IMG/VR virus record: IMGVR_UViG_3300036761_000128
Coordinates: 1-20,420 of that record
DNA length: 20,420 bases
Direction: 5' to 3' (one strand)
DNA from: a virus
Shown: positions 391-18,879 of the stretch, piece after piece
Layout: each line of letters opens with the position of its first letter
How positions within the stretch are numbered: position 1 is the stretch's first letter
The notes under the pieces: generated by a model
What the model saw: only the letters and a program-made list of their open reading frames with translations
What the model was told of the DNA's origin: nothing
Databases searched by the model: none
Program-made: the position numbers and the translations under genes

Positions 391-455
391 TGCGGCGCGT
401 TGGAATAATGTTTGCTGTGACGCGTCAAGACCCCCCCTACCCCCAAAATGACGCG
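388..455. repeat. Three TGAYGCG motifs spaced 30-31 bp
   Basis: TGATGCG begins at 388, TGACGCG at 418 and TGACGCG at 449. The middle copy is part of a perfect 10-bp palindrome, TGACGCGTCA (418-427). The first and third copies continue with related bases (GCGGCGCGTTGG and GCGGTGTGTTAG, differing only by transitions). Spacing of about three helical turns would put the sites on the same face of DNA. The stretch lies between the probable small terminase and the packaging genes, where terminase recognition sites or operators are often found. That function is inference; the motif is short and could be chance. Confidence 0.3.
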
Positions 456-460
456 GTGTG

Positions 461-490
461 TTAGGGGAGGGCGAGCTATTCTGCTATAGT
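461..490 (+). promoter_or_regulatory. Candidate sigma70-type promoter with extended -10
   Basis: An extended -10 element, TGCTATAGT (482-490), matches the TGnTATAAT pattern at most positions. A weak -35-like TTAGGG sits at 461-466 with an 18-bp spacer. It lies in the only sizeable gap before the packaging genes (391-572) and would drive transcription to the right into the small ORFs and large terminase. The -35 match is poor, and the call depends on the extended -10 and the location. The rest of this gap holds a C-rich run (431-445) and no gene I can support. Confidence 0.35.
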
Positions 491-572
491 ACCGAAATCA
501 CGGGCGTATTAGCTTCTGCTGATACAGAGGCGGCCCCACAACCCCGAGGCTCCGACCACCGGAGGCTCAATC

Positions 573-3148: not shown

Positions 3149-3227
3149 GGGGAGTTTCGGCATGTCGTCCGGTTCCTCGACGCTGGCACCGACCAGTAAG
3201 CCCGGCCTCAAGTCCAGTCTCGGGTAA
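3012..3227 (+). CDS. Small low-complexity hypothetical protein (71 aa)
   Basis: ATG 3012 has a strong ribosome binding site, GGGAGG at 3000-3005 with 6-nt spacing. The product is rich in Ala, Ser, Pro and Lys (MSSPKPPKAAAMPAPPLDPT start; GSFGMSSGSSTLAP near the end), has no membrane segment and is probably largely disordered. Third-position G/C use is stronger in this frame than in the overlapping end of the GNAT-like ORF, so this is the better supported reading of 3012-3148. It ends 14 nt before the portal start. Proteins of this size and composition are common between the terminase and portal genes of podoviruses, but I cannot name a family or function. Confidence 0.7.
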   Translation: MSSPKPPKAAAMPAPPLDPTQSDQAKQAAADAKTNEKRRSLAASSEGSFGMSSGSSTLAPTSKPGLKSSLG

Positions 3228-3241
3228 GCCCCGGACACCCT

Positions 3242-4969
3242 GTGGCCGCCATCCAGAACGCAAAAAGCAGCATCGACCGGAGCGCCGAGGCGCTACTGCT
3301 TCGCCACGACGACCTGAAAGGCGAACAGCGCCTCTGGTTGACGTTGTGGCAGGAAGTTGCCGACTTCGAGCAGCCGCGCAAAGGCAATATCGCGTTCAAG
3401 CGCTCGAGCGCGCAGCAACAGACCGATAGGCTGTTCGACTCCACGGCGCCGCACGCATTGGAACTGTTGGCGGCGTCCATGCAGGGCGCCCTCACCAGCG
3501 CCGCGTTTCGGTGGTTTTCGCTGGCGCTGCAAGGCGTCGAACTGAAAGACAACCACGAACTCGCGCTGCTGCTCGAGGCGTGCAGCGACGACATGTTCCA
3601 CGCCTTCAACGACTCGAACTTCGCGTCGGAGACGCACGAGTTGTATCTGGACACGCCGTGCTTCGGCACAGGCGGCATTTTCGTCGAAGAGCGCGAACCG
3701 ACCCGCTACGTCCCCGCGGGCGCGCTGCGGTTCACGGCCTTGCCTCCGGGGAGCTTCTGCATCGACGAAGACGCCGAAGGCTACGTGGATACCGTCTATC
3801 GCACCTTCATGCTGTCGGCGCGCGCCGCGGCAGGCAAGTTCGGCAAAGACAACGTCGGCGGGCAGGTGACGGCGGCGCTCAAGCAGAATACCAACCAACG
3901 GTTCGAGTTTTTGCACGCCGTGTACCCGCGCAAGGATGTGCCGCTCTCCAGCGGCACCCGGCGCCTTCCGGCGACGCAGAAGCCGTACGGGTCGATCTGG
4001 GTGGACATTGCGGGTCGAAAGGTCATGCGCGTCTCGGGGTACGACGAGCAGTGCATGATGATGCCCCGGTGGGGCAAAACGAGCGGGGAAATCTACGGAC
4101 GCGGCCCCGGCATCGTGGCGCTCCCCGACATCAAGACCCTGAACCTCGCGGTGCAGTTGAAGCTGAAGGCGTGGGCGAAAGCGGTCGATCCGCCGCTCAT
4201 GGTGCGTGACGAGGGTGTGATCGGCGACGTGATCCTCCGGTCGGCCGGGATCACCTACGTGCGCGATATGGACTCGATCAAGCCCCTCACCGAACTGGCA
4301 GGCGACCTGCGCATCGCGGACATGAACGAGGACAAGGTGCGCGAGAGTATCAAGCGGATGTTCTTCTCCGACCAGTTGCAGATGCAGGAAGGGCCGCAAA
4401 TGACGGCCTACGAGGTGCAGGTGCGCTACGAGTTGATGCAGCGCATTCTGGGGCCAACGCTCGGCCGTCTCACGGTCGAGTACCTGAATCCGCTGGTCAG
4501 CCGCGTGTTCTGGATTCGGCTCCGCGCAAGCGCCGCCGACAGCCCATACCGGAAGGTGCTGGCGTGGTGCAAGCAGAACAACAAGGCGATGATCGTGGAG
4601 TACGAAGGGCCGCTCGCGAAGGCGCAGCGACTCGCGGAGTCCACGGCGATGCAGCGGTTCTGGCAGATCGCGCTGCCCCTCACACAGGTTGATCCGACCG
4701 TGATGGACAACGTGGATCTGGACTTTATGATCCGTCGTCACGGGGATAGCGTCGGCACGCCCGCGGGCATGATGCGGCAGCCCGAGAAGGTCGCGGAGAT
4801 CCGACAGGCCCGGACGGCGGCGGCAGCACAGAAGGCGCAGCAAGAAGCCGCGCAGCAGACCATGAAGGCGGCGGGCGGCGGCACCGGAGCAGCAGCGATG
4901 GTGTCCGCGCTCAGCGGCCAAAAGGAAGGGACGATCCCCGGTGGATCGCCTGTGGTGACCAGTGGGTAG
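3242..4969 (+). CDS. Head-tail connector (portal) protein
   Basis: The 575-residue product matches the podoviral 'head to tail connecting protein' family (Pfam PF12236) in length and layout. Near the N terminus is an EGEQR-like helix (residues 24-45). RKGNIAFKR-like and DSTAPHALELLAASMQGALT segments follow (46-85). The hallmark GEIYGRGPGIVALPDIKTLN spans 282-301, and a helical stem and wing follow (about 340-420, with MTAYEV). From about residue 520 the tail is Ala/Gln/Gly-rich. As a dodecamer it would form the DNA channel at one capsid vertex, dock the terminase and carry the tail tube. The start is GTG 3242, 14 nt after the upstream gene, without a clear ribosome binding site; no better start exists before the conserved N terminus. 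The end overlaps the next gene by 8 bp. Confidence 0.95.
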   Translation: MAAIQNAKSSIDRSAEALLLRHDDLKGEQRLWLTLWQEVADFEQPRKGNIAFKRSSAQQQTDRLFDSTAPHALELLAASMQGALTSAAFRWFSLALQGVELKDNHELALLLEACSDDMFHAFNDSNFASETHELYLDTPCFGTGGIFVEEREPTRYVPAGALRFTALPPGSFCIDEDAEGYVDTVYRTFMLSARAAAGKFGKDNVGGQVTAALKQNTNQRFEFLHAVYPRKDVPLSSGTRRLPATQKPYGSIWVDIAGRKVMRVSGYDEQCMMMPRWGKTSGEIYGRGPGIVALPDIKTLNLAVQLKLKAWAKAVDPPLMVRDEGVIGDVILRSAGITYVRDMDSIKPLTELAGDLRIADMNEDKVRESIKRMFFSDQLQMQEGPQMTAYEVQVRYELMQRILGPTLGRLTVEYLNPLVSRVFWIRLRASAADSPYRKVLAWCKQNNKAMIVEYEGPLAKAQRLAESTAMQRFWQIALPLTQVDPTVMDNVDLDFMIRRHGDSVGTPAGMMRQPEKVAEIRQARTAAAAQKAQQEAAQQTMKAAGGGTGAAAMVSALSGQKEGTIPGGSPVVTSG

Positions 4970-5288: not shown

Positions 5289-6078
5289 CGTCGTGGCCCC
5301 GGAAGGGACAACCCAACCCCCAGTAACCGATGGAGTGAATGCCTCGTGGAGGGACAACCTCCCCGACGACCTGAAGGGCGAGAAGACGCTGGAGAAGTTC
5401 GTCGGCAAGGACTGGAGCGAAGCTGGCCCCGCCCTCGCCAAGAGCTACATCAATCTCGAGAAGATGCCGCGCGGCCTCACGGTCCCCGGCGAGGCAGCGA
5501 CGCCCGAAGAGTGGAACGCCTACCACGACAAGGTACGCCCGGCGAAGGTCGAGGAGTACGGGGTCGCGGCCAAGGTGCCCGATGGGATGAACTGGAGCAA
5601 GGAGGCCGAGCAACGCATCGTCAGTTCGATGCACAAGCGCGGCCTCACGACGGCGCAGGCGCAGGGCGTAATCAACGACTACCTCGGGATCGCGCACGAG
5701 GGACTGCTCAACATGGAGCAGGGAAAGAACCTCGCGATTGCCGACGCCGAGAAGTCGATGCAGGACGAGTGGGGTGGCCTGTATCCGCAGAACATCGCGC
5801 TGGTGCAGCGCATCGTCACCGAGTTCGGCGACGACGGCTTCAAAGCGTACCTCGACGACACAGGGCTCGGCAACGACCCCAACTTCCTCCGGTTCGTCTA
5901 CAACCTCGGCCGCCCGATGCTCGAAGACAACCTCGTGCGTGGTGATGGCCTCGGGATGCGGCGCAACGAAGCGCAGGCCGAGATCGACGCGATCATGAAG
6001 ACCAAGGAGTGGCTGGCAGGCGACAAGGCCAGCATCGAGCGCATCAACTCCCTTTACCCTATCGCGAACAGCGACTAG
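5278..6078 (+). CDS. Probable capsid assembly scaffolding protein
   Basis: ATG 5278 follows GAGGAG (5262-5267, spacing 10). The 266-residue protein starts with a disordered stretch and then shows the pattern WRDNLPDDLKGEKTLEKFVG (residues 24-43) and AKSYINLEKM (54-63), seen in podoviral scaffold-like or capsid assembly proteins. The middle (100-190) is strongly helical and charged. A short helical C terminus (230-260) holds basic and acidic residues as expected for a capsid-binding hook. It would act inside the prohead to guide coat assembly and then leave. It lies between portal and major capsid genes, the usual scaffold position, though here five small genes separate it from the capsid gene. 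No protease gene is visible nearby. The family call is by pattern and context. Confidence 0.7.
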   Translation: MANDVVAPEGTTQPPVTDGVNASWRDNLPDDLKGEKTLEKFVGKDWSEAGPALAKSYINLEKMPRGLTVPGEAATPEEWNAYHDKVRPAKVEEYGVAAKVPDGMNWSKEAEQRIVSSMHKRGLTTAQAQGVINDYLGIAHEGLLNMEQGKNLAIADAEKSMQDEWGGLYPQNIALVQRIVTEFGDDGFKAYLDDTGLGNDPNFLRFVYNLGRPMLEDNLVRGDGLGMRRNEAQAEIDAIMKTKEWLAGDKASIERINSLYPIANSD

Positions 6079-6099
6079 GCTCCGCAGAGGAGAACGCAC

Positions 6100-6336
6100 A
6101 TGGCGGCAATCACGTTCAAGGCGCGCGTTAGCGCCATCGGCGGCACCAGCTTCACCCTGACGCCCGTCGTCGGCATCGGCACAGCGGGCGCGCAGGTCGA
6201 TGGCGGCGTACCTGCGAACGGCCCTGCCCTGTCGAGCGGCATCACGACCATCGTCGTGAACAGCACGGGCGCCCCGGATACCACCGTCATCAAGAACGTC
6301 AATCAGGTGGTGACCGTCGAGTTGGGTCTGGACTAG
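6100..6336 (+). CDS. Small beta-rich structural candidate (78 aa)
   Basis: ATG 6100 follows a strong ribosome binding site, GAGGAGA at 6087-6093. The product is rich in Gly, Thr, Val and Ala with alternating hydrophobic residues (TTIVVNSTGA; NQVVTVELGL), suggesting a single small beta domain. It has no Cys, no signal peptide and few charges. I do not recognise a family. Between scaffold and capsid genes, a small beta-domain protein could be a capsid decoration or head-completion protein, but this is inference from position and composition only. Confidence 0.65.
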   Translation: MAAITFKARVSAIGGTSFTLTPVVGIGTAGAQVDGGVPANGPALSSGITTIVVNSTGAPDTTVIKNVNQVVTVELGLD

Positions 6337-6339
6337 GAC

Positions 6340-6756
6340 GTGCCGTATACCGAGGTGATGCACAAGTGGAAGACGGGTCACCTCTTTTCGGGCGGCGGTG
6401 GGAAGAAGGTCACGTCACAGAAGCAGGCGGAGGCGATCATGCTCTCCGAAAAGGAGAAGGCCATGAAGGGCAAGAAAGAGTACCAACCCGCCGCGAAGCG
6501 GCGAATGCCTGCCTACGGTGACGGGGGTGTGGTGGAGGCGACTGGCCCCGCCACGGTCCACAAGGGCGAACTCATCGTGCCCGCCGATCACGCGGCGCAC
6601 GACGCCATCGAGGCGCTGTTGAAGGACGCCGAGCAGGGCAAGAGTGCGTCCACGAAGGGTGACGAGTCGGCCCGCCTCGCGGAAGCTCGGCGCAAATCGC
6701 AGGGGCAGCCGTCGATGATGCAGCGGCTCAAGTCACTGGCGACAGGGGGCAGATAG
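6340..6756 (+). CDS. Hypothetical protein, DUF6496-like N terminus
   Basis: The proposed start is GTG 6340, three bases after the previous stop; ATG 6358 is an alternative but would remove part of a recognisable start (MPYTEVMHKWKTGHLFSG). Residues 1-40 combine 'VMHxWKxGxLxSG' with KVTSQKQAEAIMLSEKEKA, a pattern I associate with small phage and bacterial proteins of the DUF6496 type. The C-terminal half holds GDGGVVEATGPATVHKGELI (about 60-79), where 'TGPATVHKGELIVP' recalls a short motif repeated in many phage structural proteins. The protein is basic and probably partly disordered. Its function is unknown. It ends one base before the next ATG, so the two genes are likely coupled. Confidence 0.65.
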   Translation: MPYTEVMHKWKTGHLFSGGGGKKVTSQKQAEAIMLSEKEKAMKGKKEYQPAAKRRMPAYGDGGVVEATGPATVHKGELIVPADHAAHDAIEALLKDAEQGKSASTKGDESARLAEARRKSQGQPSMMQRLKSLATGGR

Positions 6757-7491
6757 ATGGCAGACAACGTCCTACTCAACGCGGGCGCAGGCGGCGCCAC
6801 CCTCGCGTCTGACGACATCGGCGGCGTGCAGTACCAGCGGGTCAAGCTGGAGATAGGCGCAGACGGCGCCGCTGCCGATGTACATACCGGGAACCCGCTG
6901 CCAGTCAGTGACGCTGGCGGCTCGCTCACGGTAGACGGGACCGTCGCTGTGAGCGGGTCTGTGGCGGTGACCGGGCCGGTGACGGACGCCCAGCTACGCG
7001 CAACCGCGGTGCCAGTGAGCGGGACGGTCACGACGACCCCGCCCGCGAACGCCTCAACCAACGTCGCGCTCGCGTGGCTGCTCAACCTCGGGTTCGCGGC
7101 GACCAGCGACGTCGTGGCGGCCCCGGTGCTGACGAGCCTCACTCCGGCGACCATACAGGCACGGTCGGCCGCGCTCTTCGTCGTCCTGACCGGGACCGGG
7201 TTCACGGACGTCTCGGGCGTCCTGATCAACGGGAGCGCGCATGTGGTGCTGTACTCGAGTGCGACCGTGATAACGACGCGCATCCCGGCGTCCGAACTCC
7301 TCACGGCGGGGACGCTCGCGGTGGTCGTCGTGGACCCCGTGACGGGCACCAGCAACACGCGCTCGTTCACGATCACGGCGCTGACGCTGACGGAAGAGGA
7401 GGAGCGGCTGCTGCAGGACAGCAACCCGCTGCCGTGCCCAGATCCGCATCAGCCCTCTATGTACCGGGGAGCAAATAATGAACGCGTCTGA
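6757..7491 (+). CDS. Structural candidate with IPT/TIG-like Ig domain
   Basis: ATG 6757 follows directly on the previous stop, with AGGGGG (6744-6749) upstream. The first 50 residues (NVLLNAGAGGATLASDDIGG, then YQRVKLEIG and NPLPV) form a start common in podoviral structural proteins. A Val/Thr/Gly-rich repeat region follows (about 55-95: TVAVSGSVAVTGPV). Residues about 123-207 look like an IPT/TIG immunoglobulin fold, starting PVLTSLTPATIQARSAALFV, with a GTGFTDVSGVLING core and ending SNTRSFTITA. Such domains on phage capsids are thought to aid surface attachment. The last 35 residues are polar. The gene sits in the head module and overlaps the next small gene by 14 bp. A decoration role is the best guess. 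Confidence 0.7.
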   Translation: MADNVLLNAGAGGATLASDDIGGVQYQRVKLEIGADGAAADVHTGNPLPVSDAGGSLTVDGTVAVSGSVAVTGPVTDAQLRATAVPVSGTVTTTPPANASTNVALAWLLNLGFAATSDVVAAPVLTSLTPATIQARSAALFVVLTGTGFTDVSGVLINGSAHVVLYSSATVITTRIPASELLTAGTLAVVVVDPVTGTSNTRSFTITALTLTEEEERLLQDSNPLPCPDPHQPSMYRGANNERV

Positions 7492-7657
7492 GGAGTATCA
7501 GCGGAAGCTGCACGAGCACCGCGAAGCTGGGCGGAAGGGAAGTCAGGACGACCGCGAGAAGACCGGGAAGCATCTCCGCGAAGCCGCACTCGAGCGCGCC
7601 AACCGGCGCGAGTGGGCGCACAAGCGCCGTGGAGACGAGAGCCGCTGGACCGAGTAG
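7478..7657 (+). CDS. Small highly charged protein (59 aa)
   Basis: ATG 7478, with GGGGA at 7467-7471, opens a 59-residue ORF overlapping the end of the previous gene by 14 bp. The product is very rich in Arg, Lys, Glu and His (for example EEYQRKLHEHREAGRKGSQD near the start, and WAHKRRGDESRWTE at the end). It is predicted by eye as one or two long amphipathic helices and has no Cys or membrane segment. Codon third positions are mostly G/C as in its neighbours. No family is recognised. It is the last gene before the gap leading to the major capsid gene. Confidence 0.65.
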   Translation: MNASEEYQRKLHEHREAGRKGSQDDREKTGKHLREAALERANRREWAHKRRGDESRWTE

Positions 7658-7676
7658 TACATCGCAGGAGCCAAAC

Positions 7677-7752
7677 GTCGCACGTGCTGCGACTTCCTGC
7701 ATCTCAGATGCACCATTGTTCACGTCCCGTGTACAACGATAAGACGTGAACA
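7677..7752. promoter_or_regulatory. Cluster of three evenly spaced dyad symmetries before the capsid gene
   Basis: Three inverted repeats lie in a row, each separated by exactly 4 nt. The first is GTCGCA-5 nt-TGCGAC (7677-7693), containing the palindrome GCACGTGC. The second is TGCATCT-1 nt-AGATGCA (7698-7712). The third is a perfect 10-bp pair, TGTTCACGTC (7717-7726) and GACGTGAACA (7743-7752), with a 16-nt loop. They lie in the 195-nt gap 7658-7852 before the major capsid gene. As RNA they could form three hairpins (terminator, processing site or stabiliser); as DNA they could be operators. No U-tract follows any of them, so a classical terminator is unlikely. The function is inferred only from location. 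Confidence 0.5.
7716..7743 (+). promoter_or_regulatory. Candidate promoter before the major capsid gene
   Basis: TTGTTC (7716-7721) resembles a -35 box, and GATAAG (7738-7743) resembles a -10 box with 16-bp spacing. Both elements lie largely within the 10-bp inverted repeat 7717-7752, so a regulator binding the repeat would cover them. A capsid-proximal promoter would explain the gap in an otherwise compact operon. Both boxes are imperfect, so this is tentative. Confidence 0.3.
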
Positions 7753-7817
7753 CGCACAGCCGCGCATGGCGAGGATGGCCCCGTAAGGACAAGCCTCCGA
7801 ACTTCTGGCACCGTTAG
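7746..7817 (+). CDS. Possible 23-aa Trp-rich peptide ORF
   Basis: A GTG at 7746 opens a 24-codon frame ending at TAG 7815-7817, in the gap before the major capsid gene. The peptide reads NTHSRAWRGWPRKD then KPPNFWHR: basic, with three Trp, which is rare in chance translations. There is no convincing ribosome binding site, and the start lies inside the inverted repeat ending at 7752. It may be a leader peptide, a remnant of a longer gene, or nothing. The rest of 7658-7852 contains the dyads and the capsid gene's ribosome binding site. Confidence 0.2.
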   Translation: MNTHSRAWRGWPRKDKPPNFWHR

Positions 7818-7852
7818 CGAGGAAGTTCACCACGCAGTAGGAGGGTTACACC

Positions 7853-8782
7853 ATGTCCTTTCAGGTAGACACAGCATTCGTCAAGCAGTTCAACTCGACC
7901 GTCAACGTCAAGCTGCAGCAGGGCGGCAGCCGCCTCCGCCAGTACGTGACCGAGGAGTCGATGAACGGTGAGGAGCAGTTCTTCGAGCAGGTCGGCCCCG
8001 TGGCCGCGCAGGAAGTGACGACTCGCCACGGCGACTCGCCGCTGATCAGCACCCCCCACGACCGTCGGCGCGTCACGCTGCGGTTCTTCGACTGGGGCGA
8101 TCTGATCGACAACTTCGACAAGGTGCGGATGCTGATCGACCCCACCTCGCCGTACACCACGAACGCCGTCAACGCTCTCGGGCGCGCGATGGACGACGTG
8201 CTGCTCGGCGCCGGTCTGACGGGTGAGTCGCCCATCGTGGCGGATACTACGTCCGGTTCGCTCGGTGTGCTGTTTGGCACCGCGTTCAGCGGCAAAGCGG
8301 CCGCGACGTCCAACGCGTTCCCTTCGGCCCAGAAGGTACTGGTGAACTTCGGTGGCACCAACGTCGGTCTGACGGTGCCGAAGATGATTGACGCGCGGCG
8401 CATCCTGAAGAAGGCCGACGTGGATATGAACGTCGAGAGCATCGCGATGTACGTGAACAGCAAGGGTGAGGCGGACCTGCTCAACACCACGCAGGTTACC
8501 TCGCAGGACTTCGCGGGCGTGAAGGCGCTCGTGGGCGGAGACGTGAACGCGTTCCTCGGGTTCAACATCGTGCGCGGTGAGCGCATCCCCGGTGACGGTA
8601 CGAGCAACCTGTACCCGATCTGGGCCAAGAGCGGCGTCAAGTTGGGCGTCGCGAAGGACATCCAGACCGAAGTGGCGCGCAGGGCCGACAAGCGGTTCTC
8701 GTGGTACGTGTACGTCTGCATGGGCCTCGGTGGCGTGCGCATGGAAGAGGGCAAGGTCGTACAGATCGCTGGCCTCCTGTAG
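7853..8782 (+). CDS. Major capsid protein
   Basis: ATG 7853 has the best ribosome binding site in the window, AGGAGGG (7839-7845, spacing 7), as expected for the most abundant virion protein. The 309-residue product fits podoviral HK97-fold coat proteins of the 'Phage capsid protein' type (as in BPP-1-like phages). Near the N terminus it has FVKQFNSTVNVKLQQGGSRL and EQFFEQVG. HGDSPLISTPHDRRRVTLRF (59-78) follows, then DWGDLIDNFDKVRMLIDP (80-97). A helical spine region runs about 170-200, and the C terminus holds DKRFSWYVYVCMGLGGVRME, a long beta-rich P-domain end. There is no sign of a cleavable delta domain, which fits a separate scaffold gene upstream. About 415 copies would be expected if the head is T=7, but the triangulation number cannot be read here. 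It is followed by hairpins and a 134-nt gap. Confidence 0.9.
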   Translation: MSFQVDTAFVKQFNSTVNVKLQQGGSRLRQYVTEESMNGEEQFFEQVGPVAAQEVTTRHGDSPLISTPHDRRRVTLRFFDWGDLIDNFDKVRMLIDPTSPYTTNAVNALGRAMDDVLLGAGLTGESPIVADTTSGSLGVLFGTAFSGKAAATSNAFPSAQKVLVNFGGTNVGLTVPKMIDARRILKKADVDMNVESIAMYVNSKGEADLLNTTQVTSQDFAGVKALVGGDVNAFLGFNIVRGERIPGDGTSNLYPIWAKSGVKLGVAKDIQTEVARRADKRFSWYVYVCMGLGGVRMEEGKVVQIAGLL

Positions 8783-8818
8783 GCCCTCTGTAGCATAGGG
8801 CGGGACCGCCAACCGCCC
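8771..8818 (+). terminator. Overlapping hairpins at the end of the capsid gene
   Basis: Three stems overlap in sequence: GGCCT-5 nt-AGGCC (8771-8785, spanning the stop codon), GCCCT-9 nt-AGGGC (8783-8801) and GGGCGG-9 nt-CCGCCC (8798-8818). The last is GC-rich and is followed by a moderately T-rich stretch (cagttcttctcgtt, 8821-8834), so it could be a weak intrinsic terminator or a 3' stabiliser of capsid mRNA. Neighbouring stems share bases and exclude one another. The remainder of the gap to 8916 holds a T-arm-like motif and the next ribosome binding site, but no gene. Confidence 0.4.
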
Positions 8819-8916
8819 AGCAGTTCTTCTCGTTACCGTCCATAACCCCTTGCTGCCGTTCCGGCGACTGACGAGTTCGATCCTCGTAGCCGCGCCTGCA
8901 CGGTGAGGATAAAAAC

Positions 8917-9411
8917 ATGGCCACATTCAACAGCACCCAGATGGCGAAGCTGAACTCGACCCCGGTACAGCACGTCCGCTCGGACGAGCACGGTCGCGTG
9001 CGTCGGGCGTTCTTCGCGTGGGAGGATGCCACGCTGACCCCGGTCGCTGGTGACACCATCAACCTCTGCAAGCTGCCGCCCGGCGCTCGCGTCATGAACG
9101 GCAAGCTCTTCTGGGAGACCAACACCGCCACGGCGACCCTCGCCATTGGCATCGCTGGTTCCACGGGCAAGTACAGCGCCGTGCCCGCTCTTCTGACCGC
9201 CGCGCCTGTCATTCAGGTGAGCACGGGCGGAGCGACGGGTGGTTGCGGTGGCTTCGACCTCTGCGGCGCGGGCACGGGCGGCACCAACGCCGCGCCTGTG
9301 GTCGGTGAGGTGCTGTCCGGTCCCGTGACCGTCATTGGCACCACCGCGGTCGCCACCCTCGCCGCGAACAAGCGCATCTGCGGCTGGATCGACTACCTCG
9401 GCGTCGAGTAG
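8917..9411 (+). CDS. Capsid-adjacent structural candidate (164 aa)
   Basis: ATG 8917 follows GAGGA (8905-8909, spacing 7). The product begins ATFNSTQMAKLNSTPVQHVR and continues with a beta-rich domain containing DTINLCKLPPGARVMNGKLF (residues 47-66) and ATLAIGIAGSTGKY. This arrangement is common in uncharacterised proteins encoded right after the coat gene in podoviruses. A Gly-rich segment with two of its four cysteines (GGCGGFDLCGAGTGG) lies near residues 108-122, with further Cys in NLCKLPP and RICGW. Position directly behind the coat gene suggests a capsid decoration or stapling protein comparable in role to epsilon15 gp10, but I see no sequence proof of that. Confidence 0.7.
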   Translation: MATFNSTQMAKLNSTPVQHVRSDEHGRVRRAFFAWEDATLTPVAGDTINLCKLPPGARVMNGKLFWETNTATATLAIGIAGSTGKYSAVPALLTAAPVIQVSTGGATGGCGGFDLCGAGTGGTNAAPVVGEVLSGPVTVIGTTAVATLAANKRICGWIDYLGVE

Positions 9412-9500
9412 TTCCCTCTCGCGACTGACACGCCCTCGGCAGCGCACCACCAAACAGTGGAGAGCGGGCCGGGGGTAACCAACCCTATAGGAGACTTCAC

Positions 9501-12453: not shown

Positions 12454-13061
12454 TGCTCGCACCCCTTCGCTCCCTCTGGGAGCCTGCAGGAGGCATCCCG
12501 CAGACGTTCTTCCAGTCTGTCGCTGGCGCGCTCAGTTTCGTTGGTGACGCGCAGCGGCAGACGAACAAGGTGCTCGATGGTGGGCTCACCTTCGTCGGTG
12601 TCCTTCAGCGGCAGACGAACAAGCTGGTGGCCGGGGTGCTGTCGTTCGTTGGCACCCTCCAACGGCAGACGAACAAGCTGCTCGCTGGCGTGGTGTCGTT
12701 CGTTGGCACACTCCAGCGGCAGGCGAACAAGCTGGTGGACGGCGCGCTCACCTTCGTTGGCGCCCTCCAACGGCAGACGAATAAGTTGGTGGCTGGCGGG
12801 TTGTCGTTCGTCGGAACGCTTCAACGGCAGACGAACAAGCTGGTGGACGGCGGCCTCGCGTTCACCGGGACGCTTCAGCGGCAGACGAATAAGCTACTTG
12901 ACGGCGGGCTCTCGTTCAATGGGGTGCTGACTGCCGCGCGGACCTTCTTCGTGGCGGTTGGCGGTGCGTTGAGTTTCGCAGGTGACGTGGCTACCGTCGT
13001 CCTTACGGGCTTCGCAGCCACAGCGGAGTGGCTTCTCACCTACAGGCGGAGGCGGAAATAA
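12453..13061 (+). CDS. Protein of 18-residue tandem repeats (202 aa)
   Basis: GTG 12453 overlaps the previous TAG by one base. Residues 27-152 are seven copies of an 18-residue unit, close to LSFVGTLQRQTNKLVAGG. Gln-Arg-Gln and Asn-Lys are invariant, while the xSFxG and L(V/L)xG positions vary conservatively. The flanks are related to each other: TFFQSVAGALSFVGD (18-32) and TFFVAVGGALSFAGD (164-178). Alternating hydrophobic residues and Gly at turns suggest a beta-solenoid rung or interleaved fibre shaft. The end is basic (TYRRRRK). It has no signal peptide. The role is unknown; position before the tail tube genes suggests a tail spike or fibre rod, or a length-setting element. TAATG couples it to the next gene. 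Confidence 0.75.
   Translation: MLAPLRSLWEPAGGIPQTFFQSVAGALSFVGDAQRQTNKVLDGGLTFVGVLQRQTNKLVAGVLSFVGTLQRQTNKLLAGVVSFVGTLQRQANKLVDGALTFVGALQRQTNKLVAGGLSFVGTLQRQTNKLVDGGLAFTGTLQRQTNKLLDGGLSFNGVLTAARTFFVAVGGALSFAGDVATVVLTGFAATAEWLLTYRRRRK
12531..12908 (+). repeat. Seven 54-bp tandem repeats inside the repeat-protein gene
   Basis: Units start at 12531, 12585, 12639, 12693, 12747, 12801 and 12855. The centre of each unit is almost fixed (CAGCGGCAGACGAACAAG with A/G and C/T changes), while the outer bases vary more, largely at third positions. A degenerate eighth unit begins at 12909. The repeat is coding and in frame, so copy-number change by recombination would lengthen or shorten the protein without a frameshift. 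Confidence 0.9.
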
Positions 13062-17160: not shown

Positions 17161-18879
17161 ATGCCTATCATCGAGAAGTGGCAGGTGCCGGGGCTCGACT
17201 ACACACCGCCGCGGCTGCCGCATTTGCCCGCGGACTACACGACGGCCGAGCAGGCGACGGCCATTGGCAAGATCGGCTCGCAGATCACCGACGAACTGTC
17301 CACCATCGCCGGGCAGCGGGCACACGCGGCAGCACGGCTTGAGTCGGACGCGCGCCGGGGCGATGTCGCAGTCGCCTTCGATGCCCTGAAGAACAAGATC
17401 ATGACGTCGCCGCTGCGGCAGCGCAAGCTGGCTGGCGGTGAAGGTGAAGACCCCGAGGCAGCGGCGTTCCTCCCGTCCACGCCGATCCCCAAGAGCGAGA
17501 CGATGATGGAGGATTGGAACAAGGGCGCCGAGGCTATCAGGAAGCAGGCGCTCGAGGGGACCGACGCGCTGACGGCCCAGTATCTCAAGGGGCACGTACT
17601 GCTGATGTACAGCAACGCCACCAAGACGATGCAGGATCTCAAGATGCAGTCGCAGCAGCACGAGATGCTTGCCTCGGTGCAGCGCGGCATCGACGTGATC
17701 CACAACGAAGTAGGCGCGACACCCGCCGACCAGTACATGACCATGAACAAGAACGGCACCGCCGTGTTCACCACGGACCCCGCGCAGTCGTCGTCGTTCC
17801 AGAACGCCAAGCGCTTGATCACGAATCGGATCGGGTTCGCCGAGCAGAACGGGCTTCGCCCGGACGCTGCGGAGCAGATGCGGCGTCATGAGTTGGCCTT
17901 CCTCGCAAAGAACTGGGCCGAGAAGCAGATGCGCCTCGATCCCGCGGCATGGGCGCAGTCGGTCGAGGCGGGCACGAACCTGTGGGGCAGCGAGATCAGC
18001 GACACGCAGCAGGCGCACCTCAAGACGCAAGCGGACGCCGCGGTCACCAAGACCAATGCGGCGGAACACAAGAAGATCCTCGACGCCCGCGAGAAGGAAG
18101 AGCAGGCGTTGGGCGACATGCTGCTCGAGAAGACGCTCACGACGCAGGCTATCAAGGAGCGGCGGAACCTGACGGGCGACCAGAAAGCGACGTGGGAGAT
18201 GAAACGCGTCGCGCAGGACCACGCGTGGGAGGGCAACGCCGCCGTTGAGCGCCAGATGTCCATCGAGGCGAACGCTGCCGACGCTGGCTATCGTATGCAG
18301 GATAAGCTGAACCTCCTGCTGCGCGATAAGCAGATCAGTGATGCGGCGCACACTCGGCTCTCTGCGGTGATTAGGGCCAACATTCACCGCAACCAAGACA
18401 TCGCCCGCGAGGAGGGCACCAAGGCGTACAACCGCTGGAAGGAAGACTTCAAGACGCTGCTCACGCCGTCACCCGCGCTCGCATTCGATAAGCCGGAGAT
18501 CCACGGTGTGTGGGCGGGTGCGCTCGACGACATGACTGCGCGCATGAAGGGCCGCCCTGACGGTGACCTGCCCAAGGTGATCGACGAGATACGACAGCAT
18601 CACCTTGGCCGCCTCGGTGACCAGCTTGAAGGGATGCGCGACGCCTACAACAAGGGCCTCACGAAGCCGATGGAGTTCAAGCAAGATGGCTCGACTGATC
18701 CTAACGCGAAGAAGGACGCTGTCACCGCCGCCTACGAGCGGTGGAAGGTGGACCCTAAGCAAGGCGCAGCGATGCGTCGTAGTGGTACGTTCCCTTCCGG
18801 CCTCTCGCAGGAGTTGGACTCCATCGACAAGACTATTGAGTACAACGGCTACGTCGCCAAAGCGAGGAAGAAGCCCTAA
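17161..18879 (+). CDS. Internal virion protein candidate (T7 gp15 position)
   Basis: ATG 17161 follows the previous TAG directly. The 572-residue protein is almost entirely helical and charged, shorter than T7 gp15 (747). Its N terminus has WQVPGLDYTPPRLPHLPADY, a Pro-rich lead. Long helical segments follow, including ILDAREKEEQALGDMLLEKT and RIGFAEQNGLRPDAAEQMRR, with ELAFLAKNWAEKQMRLDPAA forming a tetratricopeptide-like look without a clear repeat. The C terminus is basic (YNGYVAKARKKP). Proteins of this type form the periplasmic part of the ejection channel in podoviruses. Assignment comes from position between gp14-like and gp16-position genes, size and composition. The next gene starts in its stop codon region (TAATG), with GAGGAAG at 18864-18870 as ribosome binding site. 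Confidence 0.7.
   Translation: MPIIEKWQVPGLDYTPPRLPHLPADYTTAEQATAIGKIGSQITDELSTIAGQRAHAAARLESDARRGDVAVAFDALKNKIMTSPLRQRKLAGGEGEDPEAAAFLPSTPIPKSETMMEDWNKGAEAIRKQALEGTDALTAQYLKGHVLLMYSNATKTMQDLKMQSQQHEMLASVQRGIDVIHNEVGATPADQYMTMNKNGTAVFTTDPAQSSSFQNAKRLITNRIGFAEQNGLRPDAAEQMRRHELAFLAKNWAEKQMRLDPAAWAQSVEAGTNLWGSEISDTQQAHLKTQADAAVTKTNAAEHKKILDAREKEEQALGDMLLEKTLTTQAIKERRNLTGDQKATWEMKRVAQDHAWEGNAAVERQMSIEANAADAGYRMQDKLNLLLRDKQISDAAHTRLSAVIRANIHRNQDIAREEGTKAYNRWKEDFKTLLTPSPALAFDKPEIHGVWAGALDDMTARMKGRPDGDLPKVIDEIRQHHLGRLGDQLEGMRDAYNKGLTKPMEFKQDGSTDPNAKKDAVTAAYERWKVDPKQGAAMRRSGTFPSGLSQELDSIDKTIEYNGYVAKARKKP

Follow-up and report, generated by a model that had tools for sequence, protein, structure and literature searches.

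A conserved pair of bulged hairpins in the RNA leader before the capsid gene of HTVC010P-like podoviruses

The gap before the capsid gene and its inverted repeats

The stretch of viral DNA analyzed here (referred to below as the window; 20,420 nucleotides, positions 1 to 20,420 of IMG/VR record IMGVR_UViG_3300036761_000128) contains a major capsid gene at 7853–8782 on the plus strand, an ORF assigned to phrog_3437, major head protein. A 195-nt gap (7658–7852) separates it from a 59-aa ORF (7478–7657), and the Shine-Dalgarno-like sequence AGGAGGG of the capsid gene is located at 7839–7845 (plus strand). Capsid relatives were present in 62 phage records, of which 23 are Pelagibacter phages and 19 are Vibrio phages; a search of plasmids returned one relative, 28.5% identical, and a capsid scan of genome contigs returned 4 distant loci. 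Capsid identity to the window was 99% for locus L001, 81% for L023, 78% for L002, 74% for both L003 and L004, and 72% for L007.

The original prediction described three inverted repeats in the gap, separated from each other by 4 nt, and all of their coordinates and separations were confirmed. Dyad 1 (GTCGCA/TGCGAC) occupies 7677–7693 and dyad 2 (TGCATCT/AGATGCA) 7698–7712, both on the plus strand. Dyad 3 is, as predicted, a perfect 10-bp pair (7717–7726/7743–7752) with 16 nt between the arms. Of 2000 dinucleotide shuffles of the gap, 0.25% contained a perfect 10-bp inverted repeat with arms 3–30 nt apart. Two such repeats are present in the window as a whole, dyad 3 and one at 18572, inside an ORF at 17161–18879. 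As RNA, the gap folded better than its shuffles (z −3.34, with 1 of 200 shuffles as good). In the best fold of segment 7658–7716 alone, dyad 1 paired as described and dyad 2 was unpaired.

Comparison with relatives separated the third dyad from the other two. Dyad 3 is kept in L002, L003, and L023, in which the sequence before it is shorter, while dyads 1 and 2 and the even spacing are absent from these loci. The gap of L001 reads like that of the window by eye, and apart from these two no gap was seen with three equally spaced dyads. Conservation and covariation had been named beforehand as the check on the proposed element; by this measure dyad 3 is conserved, with two compensatory pairs (see below), whereas dyads 1 and 2 are not conserved and lie outside the family element. 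A promoter-like sequence had also been placed inside dyad 3. The hexamer GATAAG is indeed there, but it is not kept, reading GACAAG in L002 and L023 and GACAAA in L003, and it overlaps the conserved internal loop described below. Since a consensus scan of 6000–9500 yielded no promoter site matching at 9 of 12 positions, the enclosed sequence must be considered weak.

Two hairpins with a bulge on the 3′ strand can be drawn in the gap. Hairpin 1 (7717–7752, plus strand) consists of the outer 10-bp stem, an internal loop of A-U-A-A (7739–7742) opposite C7727, an inner 3-bp stem (CGU/ACG), and a 5-nt loop. Alone, this segment had a folding energy of −15.0 kcal/mol (z −4.68), and none of 200 shuffles was as good. 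In the four distinct sequences available (window, L002, L003, and L023), 94.2% of the 52 cells representing its 13 pairs were paired, the mismatch in L002 and L023 being at columns 7/30. Two of the 13 pairs changed on both sides, compared to none in slid controls, although 99 of 500 shuffles also reached two such pairs. In an ungapped alignment, the innermost pair of the outer stem is C-G in the window and U-A in L003, and at the top of the inner stem the window and L002 have U-A where L003 and L023 have C-G.

Hairpin 2 (7777–7795, plus strand) is short. It has a GGC/GCC outer stem, A-C-A-A opposite C, a CC/GG inner stem, and a GUAA tetraloop, reading GGC-C-CC-GUAA-GG-A-CAA-GCC in the window, with a conserved UCCG directly after it. 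On its own, the window hairpin 2 was no more stable than shuffled sequences (z 0.35). In the four sequences, its 6 pairs were formed in 95.8% of 24 cells; one of the 6 flips between C-G and G-C, and 329 of 500 shuffles did as well. The special pair of its internal loop is A·C in the window, G·U in L002 and L003, and A-U in L023. A variable middle hairpin (7753–7771, plus strand) appears in minimum-energy folds only, and is stronger in L002 and L023 and weak in the window. Covariation within the window's own clade, limited to three pairs in four sequences, is thin.

The element can evidently be lost, since L007 has no gap and L004 has another ORF in its place. In L007, the capsid gene starts 3 nt behind the previous gene, and the element is missing. 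In L004 (4419–5001), the capsid ORF starts with ATT and a different ORF precedes it, with no element. By eye this ORF was thought to be a homing endonuclease; it had no Pfam match, and the assignment was dropped.

Twin bulged hairpins in the wider family of capsid leaders

Leaders were collected from capsid scans and from annotated phages, which yielded 274 usable sequences, 150 of them non-redundant (149 without the window); since each of three scans contributed the best 80 of 580–585 relatives, the set is a sample. L004 (copy L026) and L007 (copy L029) are outside the set and would count as misses. L089, L091, L162, L180, and L211 were skipped because upstream DNA was short or missing, L125, L077, and L256 were removed because their start was unusual, and L019–L022, L024, and L025 are repeats of other loci. 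L047, L048, L049–L052, and L301–L305 are also outside the set; L046, L049–L051, and L301–L305 were inspected singly. Searching with a degenerate DNA pattern of the third dyad matched only 3 contigs, all known already, and blastn against phages produced only matches at E ~8.

Many leaders contain two hairpins, each with a 3-nt N-A-A or N-A-G bulge beside an A·C, A-U, or G·U pair. Hairpins whose bulge lies on the 5′ strand are called 5′-type and those with a bulge on the 3′ strand 3′-type, and both occur. The motif was defined by eye on some leaders and then counted on all, with shuffles, control windows, reverse complements, and covariance-model searches as guards. When a hairpin had to have an N-A-A bulge and helices no shorter than 3 bp, 56 of the 150 leaders contained a 3′-type hairpin, 64 a 5′-type, and 31 both; in 20 dinucleotide shuffles, a control that covers this N-A-A count, the corresponding means were 16.7, 16.8, and 2.05, and the maxima 29, 25, and 6. 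Among the 16 possible bulge dinucleotides, AA stood out, and AG did so less. A score-based count over the 149 non-redundant HTVC010P-like podovirus leaders gave 82 with the 3′-type, 85 with the 5′-type, and 42 with both. Random windows, drawn 20 times from the same loci, gave 6.4, 6.75, and 0.05 on average, and the reverse complements of the 149 leaders gave 7, 4, and 1. The low reverse-complement counts indicate that the feature belongs to the sense strand.

At a score of 17, the 150 leaders were distributed as follows: 30 had the 5′-3′ arrangement, 22 the 3′-3′ arrangement, 42 only a 5′-type hairpin, 22 only a 3′-type hairpin, 10 some other arrangement, and 24 none. The window, with hairpins at 7717–7752 and 7777–7795, is of the 3′-3′ kind. 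The identity of the special pair was coupled to that of the bulge: in 168 hairpins, A·C occurred with NAA in 80 of 83 cases, A-U with NAA in 18 of 19, and G·U with NAG in 42 of 66, numbers that lean slightly to A because motif scoring gave NAA a small bonus. Given this coupling, the loop is best written as R-Y-A-R opposite one pyrimidine, with the first and last R usually alike. It is a 4×1 internal loop, AYAA or, with G·U, GYAG, opposite a single pyrimidine, and usually adjoins GG/CC pairs.

Covariation was clear in the A6 cluster. In its 14 rows, 94.9% of cells at 24 pairs were paired and 10 pairs changed on both sides; slid controls gave at most 5 such pairs, with 48.8% paired. None of 500 shuffles reached the paired percentage or the covariation score, and 31 reached 10 both-sided pairs. 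The A6 loci (L186–L224) also carry two further covarying hairpins (helices 3 and 4) between hairpins 1 and 2. In other clusters, where the structure was taken from one member per cluster, five hairpins paired 72–93% of the cells of the other members, compared to 15–68% when slid, and two weaker candidate hairpins were 63% and 58.5% paired. Run de novo on sequence-only alignments of four clusters, RNAalifold predicted the two bulged hairpins in those of 14 and 23 rows, with a 2-nt rather than a 3-nt bulge in hairpin 2; in the clusters of 45 and 24 rows, the hairpins it found were only weak or partial.

A covariance model, R1, was built from the 14 A6 rows and used to search both strands of 87 loci (355,420 bases). 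It returned 31 matches at E ≤ 1, all on the plus strand and all, as read from coordinates, in the leader before the capsid gene; one of these lies in L214, which is closely related to the training rows, and no match was obtained in 56 of the 87 loci. The 79 loci searched with a second model, R2, contained 19 matches at 18 places, again all in leaders. In HTVC010P, the R2 match (E 2.3e-9) was the sole one in the 34,892-base genome. Both models were trained mainly on 5′-3′ members. At E ≤ 1, neither matched the window, L023, or L042, and both missed the whole genome L300 (ct3Et533), in whose leader the motif scan finds both hairpins. In L003, only the hairpin 2 segment was matched, and weakly (R1, E 0.67; R2, E 0.17); L002 was matched weakly as well (R2, E 0.34). 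As the models cover the 5′-3′ type, the 3′-3′ window is assigned by motif and not by model. Judged by that motif, the window is a divergent member of a twin-bulged-hairpin family found upstream of the capsid gene in many podoviruses of the HTVC010P-like group.

Of nine distant relatives viewed singly, two carry the element. Alteromonas phage ZP6 (L302) has, in the leader before its capsid gene at 701, promoter-like hexamers TTGACA and TATAAT followed by two 5′-type hairpins with UAG bulges. L049, a Micavibrio MAG contig whose capsid gene is distant (25%), has hairpin 1, a terminator-like T run, and then hairpin 2 at about 2892–2960. The other seven (Vibrio, Yersinia, Methylophilales, and Alcaligenes phages, L046, L050, and L051) were without it.

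Motif matches outside capsid leaders were taken as chance. In the window, those with scores of at least 24 were inside genes (4170–4201 and 12642–12672), and weak single matches fell in gaps 391–572 (plus strand) and 3149–3241 (minus strand). HTVC010P had two inside genes and a weak one in gap 1–724, and ct3Et533 had one per strand, with single matches of score 17–18 in three other gaps.

Promoters and ribosome-binding sequences around the hairpins

Sigma-70-like promoters matching at least 9 of 12 consensus positions were found in 76 of the 150 leaders, compared to a mean of 25.9 and a maximum of 37 in shuffles. Both such a promoter and a 5′-type hairpin were present in 45 leaders, and in 29 of these the hairpin began 1–18 nt downstream of the −10 box; when hairpin positions were permuted among the 45 leaders, the mean was 13.2 and the maximum 24, and none of 5000 permutations reached 29. 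Hairpin 1 thus tends to be predicted near the start of the expected transcript where a promoter is recognizable. The window leader itself has no promoter at 9 of 12, its best site matching at 7 of 12. The T7-type RNA polymerase family PF00940 was over the Pfam cut-off in none of 18 relatives' records, some of which are fragments, as is the window; there was 1 weak sub-threshold match, and 14 control genomes were also without a match, so the sensitivity of this search is undemonstrated. The result makes use of the host polymerase likely.

Downstream of the hairpins, 140 of 149 leaders had a Shine-Dalgarno-like string in their last 20 nt (19.6 of 149 for random 20-mers). The A+T content was 71% at −40 to −21 before the capsid start, compared to 53% at −60 to −41. 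The heptamer TTAACTT, part of the T7 gene 10 enhancer word, occurred in 19 of 150 tails, compared to 2.7 in shuffles; the complete word was present in only 5 of 150. The 3′-type hairpins ended a median of 44 nt before the capsid start. The exact hairpin 2 pattern of one clade was found in 75 contigs, and in 74 of them the capsid start codon began at base 44–48 after the pattern, a nearly fixed distance.

Possible roles of the leader and relation to known systems

Taken together, the family counts, the controls, and the covariation argue that the gap very probably encodes a structured RNA element of the sense strand before the capsid gene. The original prediction had offered, among other readings, a structured leader setting capsid levels. 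Its structural part is supported by the two compensatory pairs of dyad 3 and the strong covariation of the wider family, while an effect on capsid levels would follow from the role proposed here. We favor, with a probability of roughly 45%, a cis-acting leader with a role in mRNA stability or translation, which would act by way of a factor on the twin loops to set the output of capsid mRNA. Three features favor such a role: a start codon at a nearly constant distance (in one clade), a Shine-Dalgarno site left open, and the AU-rich stretch. The RNA would be the 5′ leader of the capsid mRNA and would fold while host RNA polymerase makes it. One trans-acting factor, either a host or a phage protein, may then dock on the two equal loops, where it would protect the 5′ end and keep the AU-rich stretch and the Shine-Dalgarno site open. 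The expected outcome is high, more, or steadier capsid production.

The main competing explanation, which we consider appreciably less likely, is processive antitermination, in which the twin hairpins would bind the host RNA polymerase as it transcribes, with or without Nus factors, and let it read the long late operon without pausing or terminating. The model here is HK022 put RNA (putL/putR), an RNA with a triple helix and an A9-G35 pair. Beside a promoter of the host polymerase, the first ~100 nt of the phage transcript contain two bulged stem-loops; putL is an element of ~70 nt with two stem-loops just downstream of PL that binds the β′ zinc-binding domain (PMC9378689). Relatives of the window resemble it in having two bulged stem-loops within ~100 nt that follow a sigma-70-like promoter more often than chance, while the window itself has no promoter at 9 of 12; this promoter-proximal position, the two bulges, and the likely use of host polymerase favor a put-like role, and the single model match in the HTVC010P genome agrees with it. 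The near-fixed distance to the start codon in one clade, however, fits a link to translation better, the element precedes the capsid gene and not the terminase and portal genes, and a T run is rarely found behind the hairpins. The leaders further differ from put in that they precede a podovirus capsid gene, and in that their two hairpins share one R-Y-A-R/Y loop, whose bulge can lie on the 5′ or the 3′ strand.

Autogenous control, in which a phage protein (capsid, scaffold, or other) would bind the twin loops and limit capsid translation or mark the mRNA, seems rather improbable. Proteins commonly bind RNA at sites of this type, a 3-nt bulge next to a wobble pair, both hairpins carry the same loop, and in model searches the element was always at the capsid gene. 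The Shine-Dalgarno site is nevertheless outside both hairpins of the window, and with 3′-type hairpins ending at the distance given above, simple occlusion of the start is not obvious.

An intrinsic terminator, an attenuator, or an RNase III processing site is quite unlikely: though hairpin 1 of L049 is followed by a T run, only 4 of 85 and 4 of 83 hairpins had five or more T among the 8 bases that follow, and 6000–9500 of the window contains no terminator-like site. RNase III substrates are long, unlike the short, interrupted stems of the leader. A DNA operator array, or a promoter inside the third palindrome, is the least credible reading, because the palindromic nature and equal spacing of dyads 1–3, which had suggested stacked operators, are outweighed by the sense-strand specificity of the family signature, by the compensatory changes, and by the lack of conservation of dyads 1 and 2, the spacing, and the hexamer.

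Among known leaders, that of T7 gene 10, which encodes the capsid protein, combines a promoter, a 5′ hairpin, an AU-rich stretch, and a strong Shine-Dalgarno site. The cis-acting leader favored here is similar in placing a strong Shine-Dalgarno site after an AU-rich stretch before a podovirus capsid gene, and differs in having two hairpins with a conserved internal loop. T7, moreover, uses its own polymerase, whereas none exceeded the cut-off in the 18 relatives' records, with control genomes being equally silent. Leader RNAs that load an antitermination factor are also known in the form of the LoaP/NusG-paralogue leader hairpins and EAR; these belong to bacterial operons and have structures other than the twin-hairpin leader. 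Searches of Rfam 15 at the gathering threshold gave no hits in the window or in 20 relatives' loci (126,208 bases), and at a permissive threshold the only match in 7600–7900 had an E of 6.3. No description of a twin-hairpin capsid leader was found in the open-licence PMC literature; the marine and phage RNAs listed in PMC2864571 are different ones, and its word counts do not include capsid. The element represents a new RNA family whose general type, a structured leader in front of a phage gene, is already known.

The bulk of what a phage infection produces is capsid protein, and the literature found does not explain how phages such as these, in which no T7-type polymerase was found, reach capsid levels. 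With its single, repeated internal loop, a well-defined leader RNA of this kind offers a small target for testing, and since the family has cultured members (HTVC010P, which infects Pelagibacter, and Alteromonas phage ZP6), its binding partner, structure, and effect are measurable. A repeated loop that persists although it moves from one strand to the other also deserves attention as a motif for RNA recognition.

The gap after the capsid gene harbors a second conserved structured RNA (8848–8908) in the window, L002, L003, and L023. A motif-like hairpin at 8880–8910 was rejected as a member of the leader family, the scan being without a match in L002, L003, and L023. ARAGORN called no tRNA in 8848–8908, and Rfam gave nothing above chance. 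In the structure, for which RNAalifold returned −23.5 on the four sequences, a long stem surrounds a hairpin whose loop (UUCGAUC) resembles the T-loop of a tRNA.
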